From an uncultured Rhodocyclaceae bacterium (lineage in GTDB: Bacteria; Pseudomonadota; Gammaproteobacteria; Burkholderiales; Rhodocyclaceae): a DNA stretch of 13,779 bases. This document shows positions 1,062-13,779 of the stretch, piece after piece. Every line of letters starts with the position of its first letter. Position 1 is the stretch's first letter. The DNA lies in assembly GCA_903930805.1 (NCBI GenBank), contig CAIYZZ010000510.1, forward strand, positions 1-13,779. Direction: 5' to 3'. Position numbers and translations under genes: made by a program. Under the pieces are notes generated by a model. The model did no database searches and had not been told where the DNA came from. It was given only the letters and a program-made list of their open reading frames with translations.

Positions 1062-1085
1062 GCCGTCCCACCAGCGCCGACTTTT
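1062..1085 (-). repeat. 24-base dispersed repeat, copy 1
   Basis: Read on the minus strand this is AAAAGTCGGCGCTGG, then two variable bases (here T, G), then GGACGGC. Three more copies lie at 2702-2725, 5370-5393 and 10196-10219, all in the same orientation. This copy starts 37 bases after the stop codon of the DUF4143 ATPase gene, and in the opposite orientation to that gene. It differs from copies 2 and 3 at a single base. Confidence 0.85.
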
Positions 1086-1138
1086 CTCATGCAACGGTCG
1101 CGTATCGGCCAGAAGCTGCCAGTGGCTGTTACTTTTGA

Positions 1139-1351
1139 ACCCACTACAATTACCACTCCCGCAGTGTCACCTACCCCATTGACGCAATACCAAAGCTCCT
1201 TCTTCTTGCCTGTAGCCTTTGTATCTCTTTCTTCGCGCGTGCAGAAGACGCGGCAATCGAACAACTGTTTCTCAATGCAGGTATCACCCCTTCGCGCTAT
1301 TCCGATGCAGACCGGAAAGCAAAGCGGGCGGCAATAGAAAATGTCTTCTGA
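1139..1351 (+). pseudogene. Small secreted-protein-like frame lacking a start codon
   Basis: Between a TGA at 1136-1138 and a TGA at 1349-1351 the frame is open for 70 codons. It reads like a lipophilic export signal (PKLLLLACSLCISFFARA) followed by a plausible mature segment (EDAAIEQLFLNAGITPSR and onward, ending AAIENVF). No ATG, GTG, TTG or CTG precedes the hydrophobic stretch in this frame; only ATT (1178) or ATA (1187) would be available. It may be a gene broken by loss of its start, a gene using a very rare start, or a sequencing error. It lies 68 bases before the M23 peptidase and in the same direction. I do not recognise a family, and chance cannot be excluded for so short a frame. 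Confidence 0.3.
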
Positions 1352-1419
1352 CATACGCACCGGCCCGTTTCCAGTTTATTGAAGAATAAGCGCCAGGCAA
1401 GTAGTATATTGCCAGTGTC

Positions 1420-2517
1420 ATGATACGTTCCTGGTTCGCCGCACTCCTATTCATCCTGTCACCAAATACGTTTGCCGGTGACTACCCCTTCGCTGTCAAT
1501 GGTGTCCGCAACGGTGTCCAGACAATCCTGATTGCCAGTAATCGGGGACCTGGGACGGTTTCAGTGCACCTTGATGTCACGGGGAGCAACATCGGCAGCA
1601 ATCGCTCGTTACCAATCGTGGCTGTCGTCCCGCCAAATTCAGAAATGGAGCTTGCCCGCCTGTTTCCTGCCCATCCGGGGACATCCCAACTCCAGTGGAC
1701 GACCAGTTTCATGCTCGGTAACATTAATGCTCAGGCAGATCCCCAGGCACTGTACCGGCTGCCTTACCTCGATGGCTACAGCTTCACCCTTGGGCAATCC
1801 CCTGGCGGCCACATTACGACACACCTCACGGCAGAAAGCCGCGATGCGGTTGATATCACGATGCCTGAAGGCACACCTATTATTGCAGTGCGTGATGGTG
1901 TGGTGGTTCGCACCGAAGCTAGGTTTGCAAACCAGGGCGCGCTGGATCCCGCCATGCTCGACAAGGCAAACTATGTCGAGATCGAGCACTTCGACGGCAC
2001 TATTGCCCAGTATGCGCACCTGCGCCATGGCGGCGTGATCGTCAGCCCTGGCCAGCGGGTAATGGCCGGCGACATCATCAGTTACTCGGGATCGACGGGT
2101 TACTCTGGCGGACCACATCTGCACTTTGCCATCCAGGTGACTCGGATGGACAGCCACAACAAGTTTTCGCGGGTATCGATGCCCTTCATGTTCTACGTCG
2201 GCACACCGGCAACTGCTTTCAAGTCCGTGGAAGGCCTGCTGGCGACAGCTGACTATGGCAGCCGAGCGGCTATTCCGAAAATGCCAATACCACCGCCACA
2301 GGCAAGCCAATCGACCGCAGTAGTGAAAGTGAGACAAGCTTCAGGACAGGAGTCGGGCACGAAGGTAAAGCTGGAGATATCCGGGCCGTATGTCGACTTC
2401 ATCGCCGGACTGCCAGGATGGGTGCTGTACGCTGGCACAGTGGCTGTCGTGTTGCTCGTGTTCTCGCTGCTGCGGCCAAAGGAAGATGAGTATTCACGGA
2501 ATGAGCCAAGACTGTGA
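1420..2517 (+). CDS. M23 family metallopeptidase, exported, with C-terminal membrane anchor
   Basis: The 365-residue product starts with a short signal peptide (MIRSWFAALLFILSPNTFA, cleavage probably after residue 19). An N-terminal beta-rich domain (about 20-115) is followed by a peptidase M23 / LytM domain (about 125-260). Its landmarks are an upstream histidine pair (H131, H135) before the zinc aspartate D145 in DAVDITMPEGTPI, the catalytic-site H200 in QYAHL, and the HLH zinc motif at H233-H235 in GPHLHF. This family cuts peptide bridges of peptidoglycan or other glycine-rich peptides outside the cytoplasm. A proline-rich linker (about 285-300) leads to a hydrophobic segment at 333-351 with a charged tail, suggesting the enzyme stays anchored in the inner membrane facing the periplasm. 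No good ribosome site precedes the ATG, but the signal peptide supports this start. It is unrelated to the nif genes and converges on nifS. Confidence 0.85.
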   Translation: MIRSWFAALLFILSPNTFAGDYPFAVNGVRNGVQTILIASNRGPGTVSVHLDVTGSNIGSNRSLPIVAVVPPNSEMELARLFPAHPGTSQLQWTTSFMLGNINAQADPQALYRLPYLDGYSFTLGQSPGGHITTHLTAESRDAVDITMPEGTPIIAVRDGVVVRTEARFANQGALDPAMLDKANYVEIEHFDGTIAQYAHLRHGGVIVSPGQRVMAGDIISYSGSTGYSGGPHLHFAIQVTRMDSHNKFSRVSMPFMFYVGTPATAFKSVEGLLATADYGSRAAIPKMPIPPPQASQSTAVVKVRQASGQESGTKVKLEISGPYVDFIAGLPGWVLYAGTVAVVLLVFSLLRPKEDEYSRNEPRL

Positions 2518-2701
2518 TGCTGGCCTAACGACACTTTGCTGGGCCAGAAAATGTATTTTGACTATGCGAAACCACCAGGCCTTGCCAGCCTTCACCTTCT
2601 CGAGGTTGGCATCGACACCACCAACGATGACTTTGCAAAGTTTACCGACGAACTAAGGCTTCCCTTCGAAGAAGTTCAACTTCCGCTCAGGGTCGAATCT
2701 T
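2518..2701. other. Convergent junction between the M23 gene and nifS, possible gene remnant
   Basis: The two flanking genes end towards each other here. Immediately after the M23 stop there is an inverted pair CTGGCC (2520-2525) / GGCCAG (2542-2547) with a 16-base loop, without a T-run; it could be a weak terminator for either side. A plus-strand frame beginning ATG at 2551 (or TTG at 2536) reads sensible protein (for example FDYAKPPGLASLHLLEV and FAKFTDELRLPFEEV) and then runs through the repeat copy at 2702-2725 and on into the antisense of nifS up to 2796. The first fifty or so codons might be the remnant of a gene, because the remainder is clearly the shadow of nifS. It has no ribosome site and I recognise no family. 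Confidence 0.3.
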
Positions 2702-2725
2702 GCCGTCCCGCCAGCGCCGACTTTT
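2702..2725 (-). repeat. 24-base dispersed repeat, copy 2
   Basis: Same sequence as copy 3 over all 24 bases (minus-strand reading AAAAGTCGGCGCTGG, CG, GGACGGC). It begins 7 bases after the TAA stop codon of nifS, in the direction of nifS transcription, so it should form the first part of the nifS 3' untranslated region. Confidence 0.9.
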
Positions 2726-2732
2726 CTAGGGC

Positions 2733-3941
2733 TTACGCATACGACGGCGCAAACGCCTGCTCGGGATTCGCGACCGGCGCATTGCCGGACCAGTAAGGCG
2801 AGAGTTTGCGCAACTGGGCGGCGATAGGCGGCACGGCGGCGATGACGCGGTCAATCTCGGCTTCTGTCGTGTAACGCGATAGCGAGAAGCGGATCGTGCC
2901 GTGCGCGGCGGTGTAGGGAATGCCCATCGCGCGCATCACGTGCGAAGGTTCCAGCGAACCCGAGGTGCAGGCCGAGCCCGACGAGGCAGCGATGCCGAGC
3001 TTGTTGAGCAGCAGCAGGATGCCCTCGCCCTCGATATATTCAAAGGCGATATTGCTGGTGTTGGGCAGACGGTAGAGCAAGTCGCCAGTGGCGAAGGCAT
3101 GCGGCACCTTGGCGAGGATGCCGCGCTCCAGCTTGTCGCGCAGACGCTTGACGACGGTATTCTCGTGACCGATGTTGGCCATGGCCAGCTCCGCCGCCTT
3201 GCCCAGCGCGACGATGCCGGCAGAGTTCTCGGTACCGGCGCGCCGGCCACGTTCCTGATGACCGCCACGAAACAGCGGACGAAAGCGGCAGCCGCGCCTG
3301 AGATACAACACGCCGACGCCTTTTGGCGCATGTAATTTATGCCCTGACAACGAGAGCATGTCGATCTTCGTGTTCTTCAGATCGACGGGAATCTTGCCGA
3401 CCGCCTGCACTGCGTCGGTGTGGAAAATGACGCCGGCCTCATGCGCCATCTCGGCCATTTCTTCGACCGGGAACAGCGTGCCGGTCTCATTGTTGGCCCA
3501 CATGGCGGAAACGATGGCGACATTAGGCGCAAGCAGCGACTTATAGTGGTCGAGGTCGATGCGGCCTTTCTTGTCGACGGGCAGGCGATGCACGACATAG
3601 TCTTCCTTTTCCAGCCATTCGCAGAGCGTGAGGATGGCCGGGTGCTCGACAGCGGTGGTGATGACGACGCGCCGCTCGGGTTGCGCCTTGAGGGCGGAGA
3701 GGATCGCGGTGGAATCCGACTCGGTGCCGCAGGAAGTGAAAATGATTTCCGAATCATGCTCGGCGCCGAGTAGTGCCTGCACCTGGCCGCGCGCCGTCTT
3801 CAGCGCCTTGCCGACTTGGGAACCGAAACTGTGGATCGACGACGGGTTACCGAAATGTTCGGTGAAGAAAGGCAGCATCGCCGTCACGACTTCAGGATCG
3901 ACGCGGGTCGTGGCGTTGTTGTCGAGGTAGATGGGGTCCAT
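2733..3941 (-). CDS. nifS: NifS, cysteine desulfurase for nitrogenase Fe-S clusters
   Basis: A class V aminotransferase-fold, PLP-dependent enzyme that removes sulfur from cysteine and passes it as persulfide to NifU. With the start at the ATG at 3939-3941 the protein has 402 residues (the length of the Azotobacter enzyme as I recall it) and begins MDPIYLDNNATTRVDPEVV, the conserved family start. A ribosome site (AGGA, then AGGAAA) lies just upstream; a GTG five codons earlier is open but would overlap nifU. The PLP lysine is K202 in SLSGHKLHAPKG, the PLP-stacking histidine is H100 in AVEHPA, and the catalytic cysteine is C325 in SSGSACTSGSLEPSHV. The TAG of nifU lies only 4 bases before this start, so nifU and nifS are translationally close. 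It is the last gene of the iscA-nifU-nifS unit. Confidence 0.97.
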   Translation of the reverse strand: MDPIYLDNNATTRVDPEVVTAMLPFFTEHFGNPSSIHSFGSQVGKALKTARGQVQALLGAEHDSEIIFTSCGTESDSTAILSALKAQPERRVVITTAVEHPAILTLCEWLEKEDYVVHRLPVDKKGRIDLDHYKSLLAPNVAIVSAMWANNETGTLFPVEEMAEMAHEAGVIFHTDAVQAVGKIPVDLKNTKIDMLSLSGHKLHAPKGVGVLYLRRGCRFRPLFRGGHQERGRRAGTENSAGIVALGKAAELAMANIGHENTVVKRLRDKLERGILAKVPHAFATGDLLYRLPNTSNIAFEYIEGEGILLLLNKLGIAASSGSACTSGSLEPSHVMRAMGIPYTAAHGTIRFSLSRYTTEAEIDRVIAAVPPIAAQLRKLSPYWSGNAPVANPEQAFAPSYA

Positions 3942-3945
3942 TTTC

Positions 3946-4866
3946 CTATCCTGCACGAGCCAATTCTTTGGCCAATTCGCGCGCGGGCAGCACCGTTACC
4001 AATTCGCCGAGCGCCTCGCAGAGCTTGGCCTGAATGCCGCCGATCGTCGCGTGTTCCATCATGCAGCCGGCGCAGGCGCCGACCAGATTAAGGTAGATCT
4101 TCTTGCCCTGAATCTCGATGAGTTCCATGTCACCGTGGTCGCGCTGCAATTGGGGGCGGATGGTCTCAAGCGTCTGCTCGATCTTGCGGATGCGCTGGTA
4201 GTTGGTCAGGCCGTTTTTCGTCGCAGCCGTGGCCGGCGACTTGGCACTCGGGCCTTGCGTCGCACAGGCCGGTGCGGCCTGGTTCACATGGCTGGGCTTC
4301 TCGGCGCAGACCTTGGCGAGGATTTCCTCGATGCCTTCGTGGCACGACGCGCAACTGCCGCCGGCCTTGGTGTAGTTCGTCACCTGCTCCACCGAAATGA
4401 GGCCGTTGGCGCGCACCACATCTTCGATCATCACGGCGTCGATGGCGAAGCACTTGCAGATCAGCGCGCCTTCCTCGTGGTCGTCGCTCCATGCCTCGCC
4501 GCGATAGTTGGCGATAGCCGCCTGCAAGGCCTCGCGGCCCATCACCGAGCAGTGCATCTTCTCGGGCGGCAGGCCGTCGAGATAATCGGCAATGTCCTGG
4601 TTGGTGACCTTGAGTGCATCGTCGAGCGTCTTGCCCTTGATGATCTCGGTCAGCGCCGAACTCGACGCGATGGCCGAGCCGCAGCCGAAGGTCTGGAAAC
4701 TGGCTTCGAGGATGATGTCGGTGGCCGGTTCCACCTTCAGCATCAGCCGCAGCGCGTCGCCGCACTTGATCGAGCCGACATCGCCCACGCCGTTGGCACC
4801 TTCGATGGCGCCAGCGTTGCGGGGGTTGAAGAAGTGTTCGCGGACTTTTTCGGTGTATTCCCACAT
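3946..4866 (-). CDS. nifU: NifU, Fe-S cluster assembly scaffold
   Basis: A 306-residue scaffold that builds [2Fe-2S] and [4Fe-4S] clusters with sulfur from NifS and hands them to nitrogenase components. It has the full three-part NifU layout. The IscU-like domain (1-125) has scaffold cysteines C35 (IKCGDAL), C62 (FGCGSA) and C106 (MHCSVMG). The central ferredoxin-like domain has C137, C139 (ICKCF) and C172, C175 (CASCHEG). After a linker of about 45 residues comes the Nfu domain with C265 and C268 ([15 protein letters not shown]). The chosen start, ATG at 4864-4866, gives the family start [19 protein letters not shown] and has a good ribosome site (AAGGGAG). An upstream in-frame start at 4908 would overlap iscA and is rejected. 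The gene begins 11 bases after iscA stops and ends just before nifS. Confidence 0.97.
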
Positions 4867-4877
4867 GGCAGGCTCCC

Positions 4878-5201
4878 TTACATCGTGAAGGATTGCCCGC
4901 AACCACACGTGGAAGTGGCGTTGGGGTTGTCGAACTTGAAACCGGTGTGCGTCAGCGTGTCGATGAAATCGACTGTCACCCCGGCCACCAGCGTGTAACT
5001 CATCGGATCGACAAGTAGTTTGACGCCCTCGATATCGAGTTCCGTATCGTCCTCCTGCTTCTCGGCTTCGAGACGCAGCCCGTACTGGAAACCGGAACAG
5101 CCGCCACCCTGGATCATGATGCGCAGGCCGGCGACGGGGTTCTCGGAACCGCGGATGAAGCGGTGGATGGCTTTGACGGCCTTGGGGGTCAGGGTAATCA
5201 T
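4878..5201 (-). CDS. iscA: Nif-specific IscA-type Fe-S carrier
   Basis: A 107-residue A-type carrier (HesB/IscA family) that binds and delivers iron or Fe-S clusters. The three ligands of the family are present: C35 in [11 protein letters not shown] and C99, C101 in [10 protein letters not shown] near the C-terminus. The ATG at 5199-5201 gives [15 protein letters not shown], the typical start, and follows a strong ribosome site (GGAGAG). An upstream in-frame ATG/GTG-type extension to 5252 would begin inside the sigma-54 promoter and upstream of the predicted transcription start, so it is rejected. Position directly upstream of nifU and behind a nif promoter marks it as the nitrogen-fixation copy, as in Azotobacter, not the housekeeping isc copy. 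It is the first gene of the iscA-nifU-nifS unit. Confidence 0.95.
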
Positions 5202-5235
5202 GGATATCTCTCCGCAGTGGGGTTTGCTCTCTATG

Positions 5236-5251
5236 TGCAATCCCTGTGCCA
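5236..5251 (-). promoter_or_regulatory. Sigma-54 (-24/-12) promoter of iscA-nifU-nifS
   Basis: The minus strand reads TGGCAC-AGGGA-TTGCA, a near-perfect sigma-54 promoter with GG at 5250-5249 and GC at 5238-5237 separated by exactly 10 bases. Transcription should begin near 5225, about 24 bases before the iscA start. The site lies between an IHF site and the gene, as expected for NifA control. Confidence 0.93.
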
Positions 5252-5267
5252 CGCCAAGATAAATACT

Positions 5268-5280
5268 TAACCCTTTGATA
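5268..5280 (-). promoter_or_regulatory. IHF binding site of the iscA promoter
   Basis: The minus strand reads TATCAA-AGGG-TTA, an exact match to the IHF consensus WATCAA-N4-TTR, inside an AT-rich stretch. It lies between the NifA site and the sigma-54 promoter, where IHF bending would bring NifA to the polymerase. Confidence 0.8.
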
Positions 5281-5308
5281 CGTATAACTTAGAAGTTACG
5301 GCGCGGTT

Positions 5309-5324
5309 TGTCGTGTTTCCTACA
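5309..5324 (-). promoter_or_regulatory. NifA upstream activator sequence of the iscA promoter
   Basis: The sequence is TGT-CGTGTTTCCT-ACA, the TGT-N10-ACA dyad recognised by NifA. It is centred roughly 90 bases upstream of the predicted transcription start, within the usual range for nif promoters. It sits between the end of the CheW-domain gene and the IHF site. Confidence 0.85.
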
Positions 5325-5369
5325 AACACCAGGATTTCCCACGGGCGTAGTCGGATCAGCTCGCTTGAC

Positions 5370-5393
5370 GCCGTCCCGCCAGCGCCGACTTTT
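5370..5393 (-). repeat. 24-base dispersed repeat, copy 3
   Basis: Identical to copy 2 over 24 bases. It overlaps the TGA stop codon of the Cache/CheW gene by one base (the final A of TGA is the first A of the repeat), and runs on into the spacer that carries the NifA site of the iscA promoter. It shares three further bases (GTC) with copy 4 at its far end. Confidence 0.9.
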
Positions 5394-8053
5394 CAGGCGT
5401 GGGCGGCAGCGAGACTTCCCGTGAATTCTCGTACTGACGTGCCGGCACGTTCGCGCGCCTTGACCAGTTTGAGGCGAATGCGTTCCGGTGAGAGGACGAC
5501 GAGGATGTTCTCGCGCCCGGTCGCAGCATCCGGCCGCACCACGTTCTCGGAGAGCACGCCTTCGCCGGGAAAGAGATTGGCGACGGAGTCGATGGATGCA
5601 TTGTCCACCTCGGGAATTTCCCCGAGGCGATGCACGAGGATGCCGAAGGACTCGCCGGTCACGCCCCGCACGACGACGATCTGGGTGTAGGTAGCCGGAT
5701 CCACCGGTTTGCCGAAATGCAGGTGGTCGCGCAGATCGAACACCAGGAGCGGGTCGCCACCGAACATCACCACACCGCGCACATAGCTCGGCATACCTGG
5801 CAAGGGGGTAATACCCACCGCGTCGATAGCCTCGACGACATTCAGCGACGGGATGCCGAACCATTCCTCGCCGATATAGAAAGTGGCAATTTCGGTGGAT
5901 TCCTGTCCAGGCCGGTTACGCGCGGCGTGCGGCATCTGCACCTTTTCCTGGCGGGCCGGCTTTGCCTGAATCATGGTTTGTACCTGGCCGAGCGGAATGA
6001 AAATGAGGGCGGCGACGTCATTGCGATAGGCGTCCTGCGCCCCCTTGAACTCGCGGTAACCCGAGGACATTTTCGAGCCGACCGCATAATACTGGTCGCG
6101 GTACTCGATGATGTTGGAGTAGGCGCGACCATTGTCGAGGGCGAAGAATGCCTCGTCGATCGACAGCTCGGCACCGACGGTGATACGCGTATCGGTGGCC
6201 GCAATTACGCGGCGCTTGCGGTCGGCAAAGACGGCGAAACAACCTTCCGGCACTCTGCCTTTCTCATCGCGCGGCAGGGAATCGCGCAGCATGGCCTCGA
6301 ATTGCAGCGTGCCATCGAACACGATGCCGATCCCGCCGACCACCTTGTCGGCCTCGCCGGGCGCGCGGATGGCCGCCGCGTAGATGTAGGTAGGGGCGCT
6401 GCCATAGAGGTCGGTCGGATCGAAAGCCGAAACCGCGTAACTCTGACTGTCCTTGAGGGCGAGGGTGCGACGAACCCACTCCTCGCCGATCGGTTTGTTG
6501 AGACCGCACGCACCCTGCTCGTTCGACACGGCCACCAGCGCACCGCTGGTGTCGAATACCAGCAGGTTTGTATAGACGGTGTAGAGGCCGTTGATCATGC
6601 GCAGAATCGCAGCGATACGCTCTGCAGCAGTGGCATCGAGCGGACTTTGGGCCAGGCAATCGCGGAATGCGGTAGTCAGCGCCCACCAGCGACAGTCGTC
6701 GGAGCGCTCGTAGAGGTTGCGATCCATGATGTCGATGGCCAGCGAGGCGAGGAACTGGCAATCTTCAAGAATCGACGAGACCACGGTTTCGTGAAGGTTG
6801 CCGATGGAGCGGGCGAAAACGTCACGCGTTTTCAGTCCAGTATTGCTGATTTCCCAGAGCAGCACCTTGGAAAAGGCTGGGTTGATGGCTTTCTTGTCAC
6901 TGCTTTGACGCACGTTGCCGTTCCACACCGAGCGGTTGAGTTCGCGCTGGATGCATTCGGCCTGCTGGGGAATGCCGCGCAGGCCCTCGGAAAATAGCGT
7001 CGGGCTCATCATCACGCCAGCCAGGATGTTGGGCGGCACCTTGCTCAAACGATCCGCCGCCGAGCGGGCAAAGGCCTTTTCAAGCGGCACCATGACGTGA
7101 CCGAGCCAGCCGGGCCCCATGTAGCCCTGATAACCCTTGGTAGCGCGCGTTACCGCCAAGTATTCGCGGCCGGCGAAGCGCACCACCTTGCAGTCGGAGT
7201 CGAGCACCTTTTCGAGGCGAGCGCCGACCGGTACGTGGTAGACGTCGCTGCTGGCGATTACCGTGCCCGCGGGGTCCAGCAAGCTCAGGGCGCCCCAGTC
7301 GTCCTCCGCGGCGAGGTTGCCGAAAATGCCGGCCGTCTCGTTCGCAAAGCGGAAGCACAGGCACAGAACGCCGAGAGGCCGTCCGCCGTCCGCCGCCATG
7401 ACGCGGTAGGAATAGATCAGGCTGGAGGCGCGTCCGGGCGCGAGATCGCTGTGGCGAAAGGTCTCGACATAAGCGGCATCGGTGGCCAGCGACTCGGCAA
7501 TCAGCGGATCCGCAGAGGCGGTCACCGCGTTGTCCGCATCAAGCTGCGCCAACAATTTGCCCGTCGCATCAAGGAGAATGATGTTGTGATAGACGGTGTA
7601 TTTGCGGGCGTATTCCTGGAAGCGGGCTACCAGCTGTTCGCGGCGCTGACGCACCGATTCGCGGTGCAAGGCATTCTCGCCGTAATCCGCCACGAATTCG
7701 AGATAAGCGCGAATGTCGTCATCTGTCGCGAGAAATCCAATGTCGGCAGTGCGCTCGAAGAGGTTGCGCACCATGATATCCACCGCTACCTGAGCCTTCG
7801 ACTCCATTTCCAGCACAACCTTCTTGCGCGTCTCGATGCCAAGATTGTTGAGCAGCGCAGCGGTCAGGCTGGCAAAAGCCTGGCGCGTGCCGCTCATGTC
7901 GGTGCCGGTGCCGGAAAGTTGGCCGAGCAGGGTGAGGTTGTCCCAGACGGCTTGCAGGGTCTGCAACATCTCGCGATATTCCTCGACACTTTCCATATGG
8001 CCGATCAGCGGCAACAGGCTGTCGTCGATGGCAATGCCCTTGTACGTCTGCAT
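5393..8053 (-). CDS. Tandem Cache-like sensor protein with C-terminal CheW domain
   Basis: An 886-residue protein with two related sensor modules and a CheW domain. Module 1 (about 80-330) carries VDIMVRNLFERTADIGFLA (91-109) and YTVYHNIILLDATGKLLA (152-169). Module 2 (about 425-690) repeats this as IDIMDRNLYERSDDCRWWA (440-458) and YTVYTNLLVFDTSGALVA (491-508), followed by a Cache-like GGIGIVFDGTL strand, so the halves arose by duplication. The C-terminal part (about 717-865) looks like CheW: EIATFYIGEEWFGIP, then YVRGVVMFGGDPLLVFDLRD. CheW couples receptors to the CheA kinase. I see no signal peptide, membrane helix or receptor methylation/signalling domain, so the protein appears cytoplasmic, unusual for Cache domains. 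It starts 15 bases after fdxB and is the last gene of the nifN unit, implying NifA-controlled expression. A role in taxis linked to nitrogen fixation is inference; the sensed ligand is unknown. Confidence 0.88.
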   Translation of the reverse strand: MQTYKGIAIDDSLLPLIGHMESVEEYREMLQTLQAVWDNLTLLGQLSGTGTDMSGTRQAFASLTAALLNNLGIETRKKVVLEMESKAQVAVDIMVRNLFERTADIGFLATDDDIRAYLEFVADYGENALHRESVRQRREQLVARFQEYARKYTVYHNIILLDATGKLLAQLDADNAVTASADPLIAESLATDAAYVETFRHSDLAPGRASSLIYSYRVMAADGGRPLGVLCLCFRFANETAGIFGNLAAEDDWGALSLLDPAGTVIASSDVYHVPVGARLEKVLDSDCKVVRFAGREYLAVTRATKGYQGYMGPGWLGHVMVPLEKAFARSAADRLSKVPPNILAGVMMSPTLFSEGLRGIPQQAECIQRELNRSVWNGNVRQSSDKKAINPAFSKVLLWEISNTGLKTRDVFARSIGNLHETVVSSILEDCQFLASLAIDIMDRNLYERSDDCRWWALTTAFRDCLAQSPLDATAAERIAAILRMINGLYTVYTNLLVFDTSGALVAVSNEQGACGLNKPIGEEWVRRTLALKDSQSYAVSAFDPTDLYGSAPTYIYAAAIRAPGEADKVVGGIGIVFDGTLQFEAMLRDSLPRDEKGRVPEGCFAVFADRKRRVIAATDTRITVGAELSIDEAFFALDNGRAYSNIIEYRDQYYAVGSKMSSGYREFKGAQDAYRNDVAALIFIPLGQVQTMIQAKPARQEKVQMPHAARNRPGQESTEIATFYIGEEWFGIPSLNVVEAIDAVGITPLPGMPSYVRGVVMFGGDPLLVFDLRDHLHFGKPVDPATYTQIVVVRGVTGESFGILVHRLGEIPEVDNASIDSVANLFPGEGVLSENVVRPDAATGRENILVVLSPERIRLKLVKARERAGTSVREFTGSLAAAHA

Positions 8054-8068
8054 TGCGGTTTCCCGACC

Positions 8069-8353
8069 TCAGGCGGCGACGAAAGTGAAGCAACCCTTCG
8101 GGCAGGTGCGGCCGCAGGCGCCGCAACCAGTGCAGTCGCCCGGGTTCTTGACGGTCATCATCGCCTTGGCGTCCTCGTCGTCCCAATCGTCCTCGTCGAT
8201 CTCGTCGTCTTCGCCGCGGTCGACGAGCGTCAGCACGTCGCGCACGCAAACCTTGTAGCAACGGCCGCAGCCGATGCACTTCTTCGGGTCGATCGACTCG
8301 GCATAAGTTGGGGTATAGGGCGTGCCGCCCCGGGTAACAGCAGTTGCACTCAT
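8069..8353 (-). CDS. fdxB: FdxB-type nif ferredoxin, two 4Fe-4S motifs
   Basis: A 94-residue ferredoxin of the nif-associated ferredoxin III type, probably donating electrons to nitrogenase or its cofactor assembly. The first cluster motif is C26, C29, C32, C36 (CIGCGRCYKVC); the second is C74, C77, C80, C84 (CTGCGACGRTC) with an extra C88. Between them lies a very acidic insert (about 45-61, rich in D and E) of the sort seen in FdxB proteins, which sets it apart from ordinary 2[4Fe-4S] ferredoxins. The ATG at 8351-8353 follows a good ribosome site (AAAGGA). The gene starts 21 bases after the DUF269 gene and is followed after 15 bases by the Cache/CheW gene. Confidence 0.92.
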   Translation of the reverse strand: MSATAVTRGGTPYTPTYAESIDPKKCIGCGRCYKVCVRDVLTLVDRGEDDEIDEDDWDDEDAKAMMTVKNPGDCTGCGACGRTCPKGCFTFVAA

Positions 8354-8374
8354 GATGGTCCTTTCTGGGATGGG

Positions 8375-8821
8375 TTACAGTCCGGCCACTTCGGGATAGA
8401 GGCCAACGCGTTCGATGGCAACCGACAGAAGCTTGTCGCCCTCGGTCTTCATCTTCGAGAGCGATTCGAAGCCGAAGCGATGCACGTCGCGCAAGGTCTT
8501 GTCGAGCGCCACCAGCTTGCCGACGATGATCAGCACACGGCCGAAGCCCTCGTGCGTCAAATGGACAATAGGCACTGCCATCAGGCCGCATTCCTTCTCG
8601 ATCAGCACGGCGATGGCGTTGTAGAAGGCTTTGACCTGGGAAATGATCACCTCGTCCGGATCGCCGATGATGGGAATCGAGGCCTTGCGCTCCTTGGTCA
8701 TCACATAAGGTTCGAGGATTTTCTCGGGCGCCCAGCCACTTTGGGTGCCATAGGTGTCGAGGGCGCGCATCTGGCGCACCATCTCCTTGATGAAATCGGT
8801 TTCGAGGACAGGATCAGACAT
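8375..8821 (-). CDS. NifX-associated nitrogen fixation protein (DUF269)
   Basis: A 148-residue protein matching the DUF269 family that usually follows nifX. Recognisable blocks are MRALDTYGTQSGWAPEKIL near the N-terminus and the C-terminal run LVALDKTLRDVHRFGFESL, with a stretch FYNAIAVLIEKECGLMA between them. The exact biochemical role of the family is not established; its constant position beside nifX points to FeMo-cofactor trafficking or nitrogenase maturation. The ATG at 8819-8821 follows a GGAGA ribosome site, 45 bases after nifX ends. Length is normal for the family. Confidence 0.9.
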   Translation of the reverse strand: MSDPVLETDFIKEMVRQMRALDTYGTQSGWAPEKILEPYVMTKERKASIPIIGDPDEVIISQVKAFYNAIAVLIEKECGLMAVPIVHLTHEGFGRVLIIVGKLVALDKTLRDVHRFGFESLSKMKTEGDKLLSVAIERVGLYPEVAGL

Positions 8822-8866
8822 GGGGATTCTCCAGCGGGGAAATGAAATGGGTGGCGAGAAGCAGGG

Positions 8867-9298
8867 TCAGTCCGTCCATGCTTCCTCCGCCATGCGAGCA
8901 AAGCGATCGGGGCTGCGACTGGCAGCCAGCGCCTTGTCGATCCAGGGCACGCCACCGGCGCACATACCGGCCTGAATATCCGCCAGAAGATCGCCAATGC
9001 GATCCACTTCGGTCACCCGCACCGGCTGAATGCCGACGGCCAGCAATTGCTTGATGGCCGAAGCGCCGACCGCCATGACAAACACGGCGGCGCAGCCCAT
9101 CAGGAAATCAACCTTGGCGGCGAGCTTGTCCTCATTGCCATCCATTGCGGCGCCCGAAAACTCGCCGACCGCCACCAGGCTGACCTTGTCGGGTGTCACG
9201 TCGTAGATGAAGAAGCCTTCGGCAGCGCCGAAATGCTGATTGACGCGCAGGCGGTCACTGCTGGCAAAGGCAACGCGAATCGACATGGCGGCATCCAT
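8867..9298 (-). CDS. nifX: NifX, FeMo-cofactor precursor carrier
   Basis: A 143-residue protein of the NifX/NafY family, which binds NifB-cofactor or the VK cluster and carries it between NifB, NifEN and nitrogenase. The sequence shows the family core: VAFASSDRLRVNQHFGAAEGF near the start, DGNEDKLAAKVDFLMGCAAVF in the middle, and VGASAIKQLLAVGIQPVRV after it. The start is chosen at the ATG 9296-9298, one base after the nifN TGA (TGA-G-ATG), suggesting coupled translation; a second ATG four codons later (9284-9286, MSIRVAF) is an alternative. The frame stays open upstream inside nifN to 9547 but that part is out-of-frame nifN sequence. Confidence 0.93.
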   Translation of the reverse strand: MDAAMSIRVAFASSDRLRVNQHFGAAEGFFIYDVTPDKVSLVAVGEFSGAAMDGNEDKLAAKVDFLMGCAAVFVMAVGASAIKQLLAVGIQPVRVTEVDRIGDLLADIQAGMCAGGVPWIDKALAASRSPDRFARMAEEAWTD

Positions 9299-9299
9299 C

Positions 9300-10703
9300 T
9301 CAGTGGACCAGGCCAGTTGCAGGCGTCGCTGCGCTTTCGTGGCGCCGGGGGCCGTCTTGCCAGAAGATCGAGCGGTAGGGTGTGATGTCATGGTGCTGCC
9401 CCAGAATGAGGTTGGCGATGTCGAACAGGGCCTGGCGTGCGCCGCGATAGCCCACCCAGGTATGTGCATAGCCCCCCACCCAGTCGTATTGCGGGAAGCC
9501 GGCGCGCAACAGCGGCACGCCCAGCCGTTCTGCCGACGGGGCGGCATGTGAATTGGCGATCACGAGCTTGATGTTGCTGCCGGCGGCGGCGCGCTCCAGA
9601 TCTTCGAGATCGCCGACAATGACGCTGTCGATCGGCAAGGTTTCCAGCACGGGCGACTTCACCGGCACAACGGCCGCCGCAATCTCCGCGCCCATTCCGA
9701 CCAGAAAGCGTGAAAAACTTGAAACCAGATCCGGATCGCCTGCCAGCGCCAGCGAAGCGAAGCCGGTCATGAAGTGGGCATCGACCATCGCGTCCTGCAA
9801 CTGGGCGCGCTGGCGCTCGATCCTGGCTGGCACGGGCTGGCCGGAAATCTCCGCGAGCGCCTGGGTGAAGACATCGCATGCCTCCAGCCCCATCAATCCG
9901 TCGAAGCGGTAATCGGGAACGCCAGTTATGTCCTTCAGTTTGTCAGCAGCACGGTTGAGCGAATGGCCGATGACGAGTGTCGCCGCCGCCTCGCCGAGCG
10001 TGACGATCTCGGCGGCGGGCGTACCGCCGACGGTGAGCGGCGAAAACTCGGCGTCGATGAGGTGCCCATCAAGCGAGTCAGAGAGATCGGGAACCACCAC
10101 CGGCCGCAAACCGAAACCTTCGATCCATTCCTTGATAGCTTCGATGTCGCCCGGGGTCAGCATCGATCCGGCCAGCACGTTGACTTGCTTCGGACGCCGT
10201 CCTGCCAGCGCCGACTTTTTGGTATCGGCCACCATCGTCTCGATGATCGCCTCGACCGCCAGCGCGAAGCCGGTTTCGAGACAGCCGACGGTATCGGTAC
10301 TATTCACCGGCACGACATGCACATCGGCGAACTCGGGATGCGCAGTGCGGAACTCATGGATGCAACGACGAATGTCGGTGCCCTGTGTCTCAGACAGGCC
10401 GGTAGTACACAATCCGATTACCGCCGGCTGGTTCTTCTCGGCAATCGTCGCCAGCGCCTGCATGACGTTCTCGTCAGCACCCATCACCGTCGCAATCTGA
10501 TCCATCGCCGTGGTCTGTAGCGGAATCGGCTCCCGGAAGTGGCGCACCAGAAAAACCTTGGCAAACGCCGTGCAGCCCTGCGAACCATGCAGCAGCGGCA
10601 GGGCGCGATTCAGGCCGAGAAAAGCCAGCGAAGCGCCCACCGGCTGCGAAGCCTTGAGCGGATTGACCGATAGCGGTTTGGGGGTGCGGATGATTTTGGC
10701 CAC
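9300..10703 (-). CDS. nifN: NifN, FeMo-cofactor scaffold subunit
   Basis: A 467-residue subunit that with NifE forms the NifEN complex on which the FeMo-cofactor precursor is matured. It opens [19 protein letters not shown], with cofactor-protein landmarks [13 protein letters not shown] (C44, a cluster ligand), [15 protein letters not shown] and [12 protein letters not shown], and ends with [19 protein letters not shown] and a GYRGARQ block typical of NifN. The only in-frame start is GTG at 10701-10703; a weak leader precedes it. NifE, normally directly upstream, is absent: the gene is preceded by its own sigma-54 promoter. Residues 162-170 (KKSALAGRR) are encoded by a copy of the dispersed 24-base repeat, in a spot where, from memory of the Azotobacter protein, the family is variable in sequence and length just before the conserved QVNVL strand. 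It overlaps nothing and nifX follows after one base. Confidence 0.96.
10196..10219 (-). repeat. 24-base dispersed repeat, copy 4, inside nifN
   Basis: This copy lies within the nifN coding sequence, in the same orientation as the gene, and encodes most of K162 to R170. It differs from copies 2 and 3 at one base, which is the third position of the Ala167 codon and so silent. Flanking bases on one side extend the match to copy 3 by GTC. Confidence 0.88.
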
Positions 10704-10811: not shown

Positions 10812-11165
10812 ACTCACCAAATACCTGTCGGTTTGCGCCAATCGCATCTATGGCTGGCAACAGGACACCGGCGACTTCATGTCCGAGGCCTTGCGTACCG
10901 AAATTCTTTCGAGAGCAGGAATCGTAGCCAGGAGAAACGGTGGGGCGGATAGGCCAACAGGTTCGTTGCAGGTACCGGGAAACCGTTGGGTGTTGATAGG
11001 GGTGCGTGTCGGGCCAGAAATACCACTCAGAAATTGTGGTTACCTGGATGACCGTTGCTCTGGGTCAATCCCTGTGCCTGACTGTCGGTGCAGAATCCCA
11101 AGCAAAGTGTAGTTTGCCCGCCCATGTTAGGCGTGCCTAGAACGATTAGCCATCCCAAGATAACC
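10812..11165. other. Non-coding spacer between the nifN promoter and the sensor gene
   Basis: I see no convincing gene here; a plus-strand frame at 10879-11112 has no ribosome site and no recognisable content. Two things stand out. First, bases 11066-11078 repeat 13 bases (CAATCCCTGTGCC) of the iscA sigma-54 promoter exactly, but the flanking -12 GC and first T of the -24 element are changed, so it looks like a degenerate promoter pointing towards nifN. Second, TAGGC (11128-11132) and GCCTA (11135-11139) form a small dyad 26 bases before the sensor gene start, a possible operator. No remnant of nifE could be found. Confidence 0.45.
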
Positions 11166-13779
11166 ATGACATTGAATCAGCAACCCATCCGCACAAGTAC
11201 GGGTGACAGTGAGCGGGTAGCGATCCAGCATCTGCGCATCTCCGCAGGCATGTTGGCCTTTTTCCTCCTGGCATTCGCAGCGATAGCTACCTGGTCCGCC
11301 TGGACAGACGAAAAAGGCGGCTCAGTCAAGAATCTGACCACCATAACGGAGCTGGAGGCACGGGCGATAGACAGCTACTTCACTCATCTGGAGGCTGACT
11401 TGGGAGAACTCAGTGCAGAGTTAATCCGGAAAGGCGACAAAATCGACCTCGAGCAGGCCTACGGACTGGTCAAACAATTCAAAGCCGCTCATGCGGAACT
11501 GTACAACGTTACACTCATCAAGCCGGACGGTGAAATACTGCTGACAGCAAAAAATCCGCCGGGCTCCACCCATGCGACGCTAGCCAAGGAACCCTCCTTC
11601 ATCGAGTTTATCGAAGCACTCAAATCGGGAAAGGAAAGCGGTATAGGGCGCCCCCTGATTGGTGTGGTGAACAAAATCGTGATCGTTCCTGTTCGCCATC
11701 CCATCAGGGATCGTCAGGGCAATTTGGGCTACATCGTCAGTGCCAACTTGCCGCATGATCATCTACAGACATTCTGGAAAGATGCACCGATCACTACAAA
11801 AGCCGCCATCGGGTTGATGCGTGATGACGGTTTTTTGCTCAGCCGCTACCCGGTTCCGACCAATTTATCGCTGGAACAAATCTATGGCAAACCGCGGACG
11901 GGCGCATTAATCAATTTCCTGCATCAGCAAGGATTCCCAGAGCGCGGGTATATACAAGGACCAAGCAGTCTGGATGGACCAGACTTCTTGAATGCGTTTC
12001 GCCGCTTGCCGAATCATCCGCTGACCTTGTTCGTGGCCATGCCCATGACTGAGATACGTAGCGCATGGTGGGATAGGGTAAGCGAAATCTATTTCGTGCT
12101 GCTTGCCCTACTTCTCGGCGGATTCGCTACTTACCGGTATGCCCTGCGCCGCCACTACCAGAGCATGTTTGAGAAACGCAGAGTAGAGCAACTGGAACAG
12201 GAAGGCGGGGTGTTCAAGCAGGCGATCCTGAATTCAGTGGCCGCCAGCATTGCGGTGTTAGATCGCGACGGAGTGATTCAAGCCGTCAATAAACCCTGGG
12301 AACGCTTCTCCATTGAGAACAGCCCGGTTCCTGGGACACCCACATCGCATACCTATGTGGGTACCAATTATTTTGCAGCCTGCCAGATCGACTCCGGCAA
12401 CCAGGAAGATCAGGTCTCGGCCTCTATCGCGGGTATTCATGCGGTTCTGGACGGGGAATTGCCTACGTTCTCTCAGGAATACCCATGCGACACCCCCGAG
12501 AAACGCCAATGGTTCCGATTAGGCGTTGTGCCATTGGAGGGCATATCCGGTGGTGGGGTCGTCATCACGCACACCGACATCACCGACAGCAAACTCGCGG
12601 AAGATGCCATACGCGAGAGCGAGCAACGTTTCCGCATCATGGCGGATAAAGCGCCGGTGCTGATCTGGATGGCGGGGGAGGACAAGCTTTGCGACTGGTT
12701 CAATCAAGTCTGGCTGGACTTTACCGGGAGGACGCTGAAACAGGAAATGGGCAACGGTTGGGCCGAAGGCGTCCATCCCGATGATTTCGAATGTTGCCTG
12801 AACACTTACGTCACTGCCTTTGACGCCCGGCGGGCCTTCTCCATGGAATACCGCTTGCGCCGCTTCGATGGTGAATATCGTTGGCTGATCGATAACGGTG
12901 TGCCGCGCTTTGACGAGCAAGGCAATTTCACCGGCTACATCGGCTCCTGCACAGACATCACGGATCGCAAGTTGGCTGAGGCCGAGCGCATCCGCCTGCT
13001 GAAGATCATTGAGGAGGCACCGGACTTCATCGCCATGTCAGATATGCAGTCGCAGCTTACCTACCTCAATACAGCAGGTGCCCGGTTGGTCGGCCTTCCC
13101 GATAATCCAGACCTGACCACTCTGAAAATCAAAGATATGCATCCAGAGTGGGCGACACGGAAGGTATTGGAAGAGGGGATCCCCGCTGTTCTGCAACATG
13201 ATTCCTGGACCAGCGAAACCGCCTTGCTACACCGGGATGGTCACACAACGCCGGTATCCCAATTGTTACTTCTGCATCGTGATGCGTCGGGCAATCCCCA
13301 GTTGCTCTCGACAATCATGCGCGATATTTCCGAGTTCAAGAACATCCAGAACATGCTGGAAAAAAAAATGCAGTTGCTTAACACCATTCTCGACAACTCC
13401 AGCGTCGGCATCACATTTGTTCAGGATCGCCGACAGGTCTGGTCAAATCGGCGGATGGGGGAAATGTTTGGCTATACGCAGGCAGAAATGGATGGTCATG
13501 GCACTCGCATGTTCTACCCTTCCCAGGAATCCTACGAAGAGCTGGGTCGCCAGGGATACGAAGCGATCTCCCAAGGCGGACATTTCGTCTCTGAACGGAA
13601 AATGTGCCGCAAGGACGGTACGCCGGTCTGGATGCGTCTTTCCGGAAAACTCATTGACGCTGCCGATGTTGCCTCGGGCAGCATTTGGGTATTTGAAGAC
13701 ATTACTGAACAAAAACGCGACCAGAAAGCGCTTGAGGCTGCCAAGGAAGCCGCCGAGGCTGCCAATATCGCCAAGAGCC
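11166..13779 (+). CDS. Membrane sensor with dCache and four PAS domains, probable histidine kinase, 3' end missing
   Basis: The frame is open from the ATG at 11166-11168 to the window end, 871 codons without a stop. A cytoplasmic lead of about 25 residues is followed by a first membrane helix (about 28-45, MLAFFLLAFAAIATW), a periplasmic double-Cache-like region (about 50-300, with the strand LYNVTLIKPDGEILLTA), and a second helix (about 305-325, FVLLALLLGGFATYRYA). Four PAS domains follow: about 355-475 (ending VVITHTDITDSK), 488-602 (PAS_3 type, ending YIGSCTDITDRK), 612-725 (ending STIMRDISEFK) and 737-849 (ending IWVFEDITEQK). The last visible residues, ALEAAKEAAEAANIAKS, are the helix that typically runs into a HisKA domain, so a histidine kinase, perhaps hybrid, is most likely; a GGDEF output is less likely but not excluded. 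An in-frame ATG at 11124 is an alternative start. Base composition is less GC-rich than the nif genes. It faces away from nifN. Confidence 0.85.
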   Translation, partial: MTLNQQPIRTSTGDSERVAIQHLRISAGMLAFFLLAFAAIATWSAWTDEKGGSVKNLTTITELEARAIDSYFTHLEADLGELSAELIRKGDKIDLEQAYGLVKQFKAAHAELYNVTLIKPDGEILLTAKNPPGSTHATLAKEPSFIEFIEALKSGKESGIGRPLIGVVNKIVIVPVRHPIRDRQGNLGYIVSANLPHDHLQTFWKDAPITTKAAIGLMRDDGFLLSRYPVPTNLSLEQIYGKPRTGALINFLHQQGFPERGYIQGPSSLDGPDFLNAFRRLPNHPLTLFVAMPMTEIRSAWWDRVSEIYFVLLALLLGGFATYRYALRRHYQSMFEKRRVEQLEQEGGVFKQAILNSVAASIAVLDRDGVIQAVNKPWERFSIENSPVPGTPTSHTYVGTNYFAACQIDSGNQEDQVSASIAGIHAVLDGELPTFSQEYPCDTPEKRQWFRLGVVPLEGISGGGVVITHTDITDSKLAEDAIRESEQRFRIMADKAPVLIWMAGEDKLCDWFNQVWLDFTGRTLKQEMGNGWAEGVHPDDFECCLNTYVTAFDARRAFSMEYRLRRFDGEYRWLIDNGVPRFDEQGNFTGYIGSCTDITDRKLAEAERIRLLKIIEEAPDFIAMSDMQSQLTYLNTAGARLVGLPDNPDLTTLKIKDMHPEWATRKVLEEGIPAVLQHDSWTSETALLHRDGHTTPVSQLLLLHRDASGNPQLLSTIMRDISEFKNIQNMLEKKMQLLNTILDNSSVGITFVQDRRQVWSNRRMGEMFGYTQAEMDGHGTRMFYPSQESYEELGRQGYEAISQGGHFVSERKMCRKDGTPVWMRLSGKLIDAADVASGSIWVFEDITEQKRDQKALEAAKEAAEAANIAKS

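Follow-up and report, generated by a model that had tools for sequence, protein, structure and literature searches.

A dispersed 24-base motif as a probable DNA-uptake sequence in Rhodocyclaceae

Why should the same 24 bases stand four times, always on the same strand, in less than 14 kb of bacterial DNA? The question is raised by contig CAIYZZ010000510.1 (C510; assembly GCA_903930805.1, forward strand), the 13,779-nucleotide stretch that served as the window of this analysis and that belongs to the 3.25-Mb draft genome, in 558 contigs, of an uncultured Rhodocyclaceae bacterium, hereafter the source genome. Sequence comparison suggests that this 24-mer, written AAAAGTCGGCGCTGGNNGGACGGC, is probably a DNA-uptake sequence, by which a clade of Rhodocyclaceae would recognise its own DNA during natural transformation. 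Direct support comes from its abundance, strand balance, sharp borders, lineage dialects and copy-free deserts, and from an in-place origin at a small number of sites. On these grounds, a role in uptake is proposed, with probable reading by a pilin that would contact two blocks, AAAGTC and ACGGC, held at constant spacing around a genus-specific middle. The computable hallmarks of uptake sequences that were tested are present, some of them on small samples, with the exception of close inverted pairs and of a receptor. No prior description of an uptake sequence in Rhodocyclaceae, or of this motif, appeared among the papers listed by searches of an open-access library.

Abundance and placement of the 24-mer

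The copy number of the 24-mer lies far above chance. Allowing up to three mismatches, 603 copies are present in the source genome, distributed evenly over the two strands (291/312), and the reversed control yields 0. Within its genus (g1), 18 of the 19 genomes carry 206-748 copies at the same tolerance (150 genomes scanned, the source genome included). An earlier note on this DNA had allowed that a genome-wide signal would fall if the genome held only a few copies; the signal survives with 603. The uniform strand of the four copies, which the note had taken as what a polar motif would show, proved to be a small-sample effect.

Placement on the chromosome was followed in G017, a complete genome of the same genus whose dialect is GAAAVTCGGCGCTGGCRRSACGGCAC, by sampling 20 stretches of 20 kb at even spacing and calling their genes with an in-house predictor. 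These contain 71 copies at up to two mismatches, of which 46 lie wholly in coding sequence, 5 partly and 20 outside it; of all positions, 89.6% are wholly coding (p = 2e-8). Copies thus occur both in genes and between them, with the intergenic enrichment expected of an uptake sequence; a comparison of intergenic and coding shares had been proposed in the earlier note. Genes hosting copies include uvrC (in G017 called from a fragment at a stretch end, under the model cut-off), FGAM synthase, gcvP, a heavy-metal P-type ATPase and, in the window, nifN. The bias relative to the replication arms, for which the note had also proposed a check, is absent: by GC skew, 27 copies are leading and 33 lagging among the 60 assignable ones, the other 11 of the 71 having been dropped from stretches without clear skew. 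Strand polarity was therefore rejected, both genome-wide and by replichore.

The distribution along the G017 chromosome combines regularity with deserts. Seventeen of the 20 stretches hold 2-7 copies each, with a mean of 4.2 and a variance of 1.5 (3.55 and 3.6 when the three empty stretches are included). One empty stretch, L058, encodes ribosomal proteins, EF-G, EF-Tu, SecY and RpoA (8 proteins searched); another, L068, carries prophage terminase, portal and head genes (5 proteins searched); and the third, L073, contains an RTX-repeat protein, an integrase and a Mu-type transposase (5 proteins searched). The prophage desert is free of copies across 1,870,001-1,948,678, and copies reappear in the stretches neighbouring L058 and L073. 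Scarcity in prophage and newly acquired DNA is thus seen on a small sample of one prophage region and one integrase stretch in one genome. A second repeat was also noticed in G017, the 12-mer AATGGACAATCT, with 6 occurrences in 80 kb (L054, L055, L057, L059).

Such a pattern might also be expected of a chromosome-wide site for an organisation, segregation or repair protein, of the sort represented by FtsK-orienting polar sequences (KOPS), Chi, matS, Noc or parS sites, one of three guesses made in the earlier note. The 24-mer is long, sharply bounded and genome-wide, and its counts per 20-kb stretch are fairly even outside the deserts. However, it shows neither replichore polarity nor clustering, which weakens this guess, and it switches dialect between genera, is missing from prophage stretches and lies within genes in 46 of 71 cases. 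A chromosome site is consequently considered unlikely, and an uptake-type signal, another of the three guesses, fits nearly all results.

The borders of the motif are equally informative. Among 42 distinct copies, drawn from the window and from 30 loci fetched for exact matches, with neighbours at up to three mismatches counted in, conservation ends abruptly at both ends of the 24-mer, the sole extra being a purine directly 3' in 38 of the 42. In the window, AAAAGTCGGCGCTGGNNGGACGGC has four minus-strand matches without any mismatch at the fixed positions, the two free bases reading TG, CG, CG and CA in copies 1 to 4. The earlier note had reported four near-identical 24-mers in one orientation, and its positions and strand are exact; its judgement that they lie beyond chance is borne out by dinucleotide-preserving shuffles, none of 200 giving a match at up to three mismatches.

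Copy 1 (AAAAGTCGGCGCTGGTGGGACGGC, 1062..1085) is intergenic; a plus-strand AAA_14/DUF4143 open reading frame (ORF; 14-1024; Pfam) ends 37 bases before it. Copy 2 (AAAAGTCGGCGCTGGCGGGACGGC, 2702..2725) follows nifS (2733-3956, minus strand), starting 7 bases beyond its stop codon, and copy 3, again AAAAGTCGGCGCTGGCGGGACGGC (5370..5393), opens with the A that closes the TGA stop codon of a Cache/CheW ORF (5393-8053, minus strand). Copy 4 (AAAAGTCGGCGCTGGCAGGACGGC, 10196..10219) lies within nifN (9300..10703, minus strand; TIGR01285, 3.2e-177), where it encodes, in frame, the residues KSALAGRR of a linker that varies in length. All four copies are on the minus strand; three of them lie 0-37 bases beyond a stop codon, and two of these (0 and 7 bases) follow same-strand stops.

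This position recalls a transcription-related signal, such as a terminator or processing site, and many intergenic copies follow stop codons; in addition, one strand reads GCCGT...CTTTT with a terminal T run. A stable fold is nevertheless lacking. No strong internal dyad was found, in agreement with the earlier note, the folding z-scores being 0.36 for the 24-mer and 0.05 for its complement, and the surroundings of three window copies gave 1.48, 0.49 and -0.08. A hairpin or terminator was rejected on these values. Moreover, 46 of the 71 G017 copies are genic, in either orientation, and close pairs are absent, so that a transcriptional role appears highly improbable.

Two neighbouring genes of the window deserve mention. 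The Cache/CheW ORF at 5393-8053 (minus strand) encodes 886 aa, with a CheW domain at the C terminus, a Cache match below the cut-off and 0 NCBIfam matches at 1e-10; its place between an iscA-like gene and a nif-cluster ferredoxin is odd for a chemotaxis-type protein. At 11088-13778 (plus strand), a long ORF runs past the window end and resembles, by eye, a PAS-type sensor protein.

Spread and dialects within the family

Rhodocyclaceae may well possess a DNA-uptake language of their own, a third beside those of Neisseriaceae and Pasteurellaceae. In this language, two outer blocks common to the rich genera, AAAGTC-N12-ACGGC, would enclose a genus-specific middle (at least GGCGCTGG, GACGCTGG and AGTCNCNG-like) acting as a species barrier to gene exchange. 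Among 297 family genomes scanned, 8 of the 68 genera (g1, g2, g9, g11, g38, g45, g46 and g64) have one or more genomes with at least 100 copies of this skeleton, and two further genera come below that, with 87 copies in one g23 genome and 63 in one g66 genome. The remaining genera have at most 16 skeleton copies per genome, the reversed control there giving 0-11, and a looser pattern run over the same 297 genomes points to the same few rich genera. Outside the family, 291 genomes were left from 300 genomes of the order after removal of 9 belonging to the family itself; none exceeds 18 skeleton copies, the top being G384 (18, in two dialects) and the next 8. A lengthened 24-mer pattern, searched in named contigs, recovered 15 stretches assigned to Rhodocyclaceae (10), Rhodocyclales (1), Sulfuritalea (2), Propionivibrio (1) and Gammaproteobacteria (1). 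Sulfuritalea is placed in Sterolibacteriaceae by the NCBI taxonomy and is counted among Rhodocyclaceae by GTDB.

Lineage dialects around a conserved core, a further hallmark of uptake sequences, were recognised from the middles, read for most genera at three loci each. The middle GGCGCTGG prevails in most rich genera (g1, g2, g38 and others), GGTGCTGG is frequent in g9, GACGCTGG occurs with a free spacer in g45, and a AGTCNCNG-like middle was detected de novo in g11. Specifically, de novo k-mers from a 60-kb sample of the g11 genome G028 led to AAAGTCAGTC, and 11 of 13 AAAGTCAGT sites in that sample are accompanied by ACGGC at the distance seen in the 24-mer. The same approach revealed no other dialects in 60-80 kb samples of G006, G020, G023, G033 and G040, although a sparse signal escapes samples of this size, as illustrated by G040, which has 87 skeleton copies genome-wide and from whose k-mer sample no dialect emerged. 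Three g66 loci hint at a possible further middle, GCCGTGG. G040 also contains, within about 9 kb of L167 (2,000,001-2,020,000), a set of AATAGGGGACAGACCACGATTTT-like repeat units that run in either orientation, perhaps of repetitive extragenic palindromic (REP) type or related to an insertion sequence.

The phylogenetic pattern of rich genera was viewed on a uvrC tree of 30 rows, which represents one gene and has several weak forks: g1, g2 and g9 fall in one starred group that also includes the motif-poor G032, and g11 is placed elsewhere. Some low-copy genomes have several of their copies crowded on single contigs, namely G073 (C66, C104), G072 (C50) and G384 (C45, with the two dialects), which may reflect imported segments or binning contamination. 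Exact matches to the 24-mer were additionally seen in 29 viral contigs, 28 of them single-copy.

If this language is real, natural competence is predicted for many uncultured Rhodocyclaceae, and motif content would provide a genome-based measure of recent DNA acquisition. Uptake-signal specificity has been documented so far for two families, and Rhodocyclaceae would add a third, mostly environmental one. The long-standing question of origin, whether receptor bias creates the repeats or the repeats recruit the receptor, could also be approached here: motif-rich, motif-poor and differently speaking genera stand side by side, so that gain, loss and dialect change become directly testable.

Origin of the copies and the putative uptake machinery

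Aligned orthologues indicate how copies arise. In uvrC, the best match falls at the same place in 23 of 30 orthologues, with 0 to 8 mismatches of the 18 fixed bases, and 6 of the 30 show 0-1 mismatch. The segment is ungapped in 22 of the 30 rows, among which equal-length motif-free rows are common; in the 8 gapped rows a loop is longer by 2-7 residues, and two of these rows also carry the motif at 0-1 mismatch. In the nifN linker, 7 of 21 aligned loci (of 30; the window's own included) show 0-1 mismatch of the 18 fixed bases. A second comparison joined G017 to G002. From G017 to G002, 18 of 71 copies were alignable, 14 of them kept at up to two mismatches; at the other 4, G002 has an equally long sequence that lacks the motif. 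In the other direction 15 of 61 were alignable, 14 of them kept and 1 replaced, with a single-base gap on each side and net length unchanged; the kept pairs of the two directions overlap. Because uvrC offers graded gapless intermediates and the five G017/G002 sites show no net length change, the copies look as if made by substitution, not insertion. In-place mutation, as expected of an uptake sequence, is seen in the uvrC series and at 5 of 5 informative G017/G002 sites, a small sample.

These data bear on the last guess of the earlier note, the remnant of a small mobile element. A miniature element or in-frame repeat spread by transposition, similar to REP sequences or Rickettsia palindromic elements (RPE), would agree with a length of 24 bases, a multiple of three, with near-identical copies and with several open reading frames through the motif. 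Yet presence and absence in orthologues do not take the form of insertion, the hallmark of transposed repeats such as miniature inverted-repeat transposable elements (MITE), RPE and REP, in either uvrC or G017/G002. The uvrC intermediates are of the same length, net length is unchanged at the five sites where one genome lacks a copy, no fold is present, nothing is conserved outside the 24-mer, and dialects exist. Such an element is accordingly very improbable.

Under the uptake-signal model, a DNA receptor on the surface of a type IV pilus, probably a minor pilin, would prefer double-stranded DNA bearing the 24-mer, so that import and recombination of DNA from the same or close species would be favoured. 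This import bias would spread copies born by point mutation wherever the local sequence tolerates them, as at gene ends and in protein loops, and prophages, islands and tightly constrained genes would remain copy-free. Of 61 genomes searched, 55 have a ComEC domain, and 81 of 91 have a match to PF16732 (ComP_DUS), the source genome included; motif-free relatives are among the carriers of both. With ComEC and PF16732 matches in place, motif-rich genomes appear to have a DNA-uptake machine.

Several observations weigh against the uptake-signal model. PF16732 and ComEC are equally common in motif-free genera. The PF16732 match stands beside prepilin-like genes in 10 of 11 inspected loci (10 from motif-rich genomes, 1 from a motif-free one; the gene predictor missed the matched gene in 6 of 11), as in an ordinary minor-pilin cluster, and no prepilin-like neighbour was flagged at the locus of the source genome. 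The search for a receptor by co-occurrence thus gave no candidate, since PF16732 and ComEC do not discriminate and nothing specific to motif-rich genomes appeared at the 11 PF16732 loci. Within g1, G006 has 0 copies of the 24-mer even though ComEC and a PF16732 match are both present, and rich genera include members poor in the skeleton, such as G312 (19) and G325 (37) in g2 and G229 (5) in g11. In the source genome, the coding share of copies (9/14 vs 73.5%; 97.5 kb in 20 contigs, at up to three mismatches, with fewer training genes) does not deviate significantly; the preference of intergenic copies for 3' ends is weak in G017 (14/20, p = 0.07), and no close pairs, including inverted pairs as in Neisseria, occur among its 71 copies. 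Regarding origin, the nifN linker is indel-rich and length-variable, so that insertion and substitution are indistinguishable there, and kept copies are uninformative on insertion, which reduces the G017/G002 test to five sites.

The skeleton counts of poor members vary with the pattern used. By skeleton, G006 has 2 copies and G016, also of g1, has 10, yet the 24-mer itself, at up to three mismatches, is present 206 times in G016; G325 rises from 37 by skeleton to 406 by the looser pattern, and G340 of g11 has 48 skeleton copies. G006, the only copy-free genome of the 19 in its genus, may be a natural case of loss or a misplaced genome; no uvrC match was found in its assembly, which is 87% complete.

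The receptor search without result would also agree with a relic, an uptake signal inherited from the past and now out of use. Such decay appears improbable: 8 of 14 copies are perfect in the 18-base core in a source-genome sample of 20 contigs taken by number, the motif is abundant in 18 of 19 congeners, and the 14 kept G017/G002 copies, a figure conditioned on presence, persist in flanks merely 72-95% identical.

Comparison with known uptake sequences and chromosomal motifs

The closest parallel to the proposed uptake signal is the DNA uptake sequence (DUS) of Neisseriaceae. Frye and colleagues describe eight DUS dialects, conserved within species and present in genes and gaps, together with five family genomes without obvious DUS, and call Neisseria and Pasteurellaceae unique in requiring uptake sequences (PMC3630211). 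The 24-mer resembles the DUS (5'-ATGCCGTCTGAA-3', read by the minor pilin ComP and present in thousands of copies) in its high copy number, its genic and intergenic copies, its lineage dialects and the existence of motif-free genomes. The two differ in form, with 24 bases in two blocks against 12, the CTG core not at the same place, and no inverted pairs seen. The 24-mer thus falls outside the narrow Neisseriaceae definition of a 10/12-mer with an invariant CTG core. Read on the opposite strand, the right block is GCCGT, and the 10-mer DUS begins with these five bases; a common root with Neisseria DUS or mere chance may lie behind this.

The uptake signal sequence (USS) of Pasteurellaceae, a family of a different bacterial class, is flanked by T-rich tracts, not by a second fixed block. 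Its core (AAGTGCGGT) is unrelated to the 24-mer apart from an AAAGT-like resemblance. The USS is similar to the 24-mer in copy-number class, permissive placement and coding share: in H. influenzae, 59% of USS lie in coding sequence vs 84%, an older quoted figure being 65% vs 86% (PMC2346458).

KOPS, Chi and matS share with the 24-mer that they are short, over-represented and spread chromosome-wide. These and similar motifs are strand-biased or regional, whereas the 24-mer is neither.

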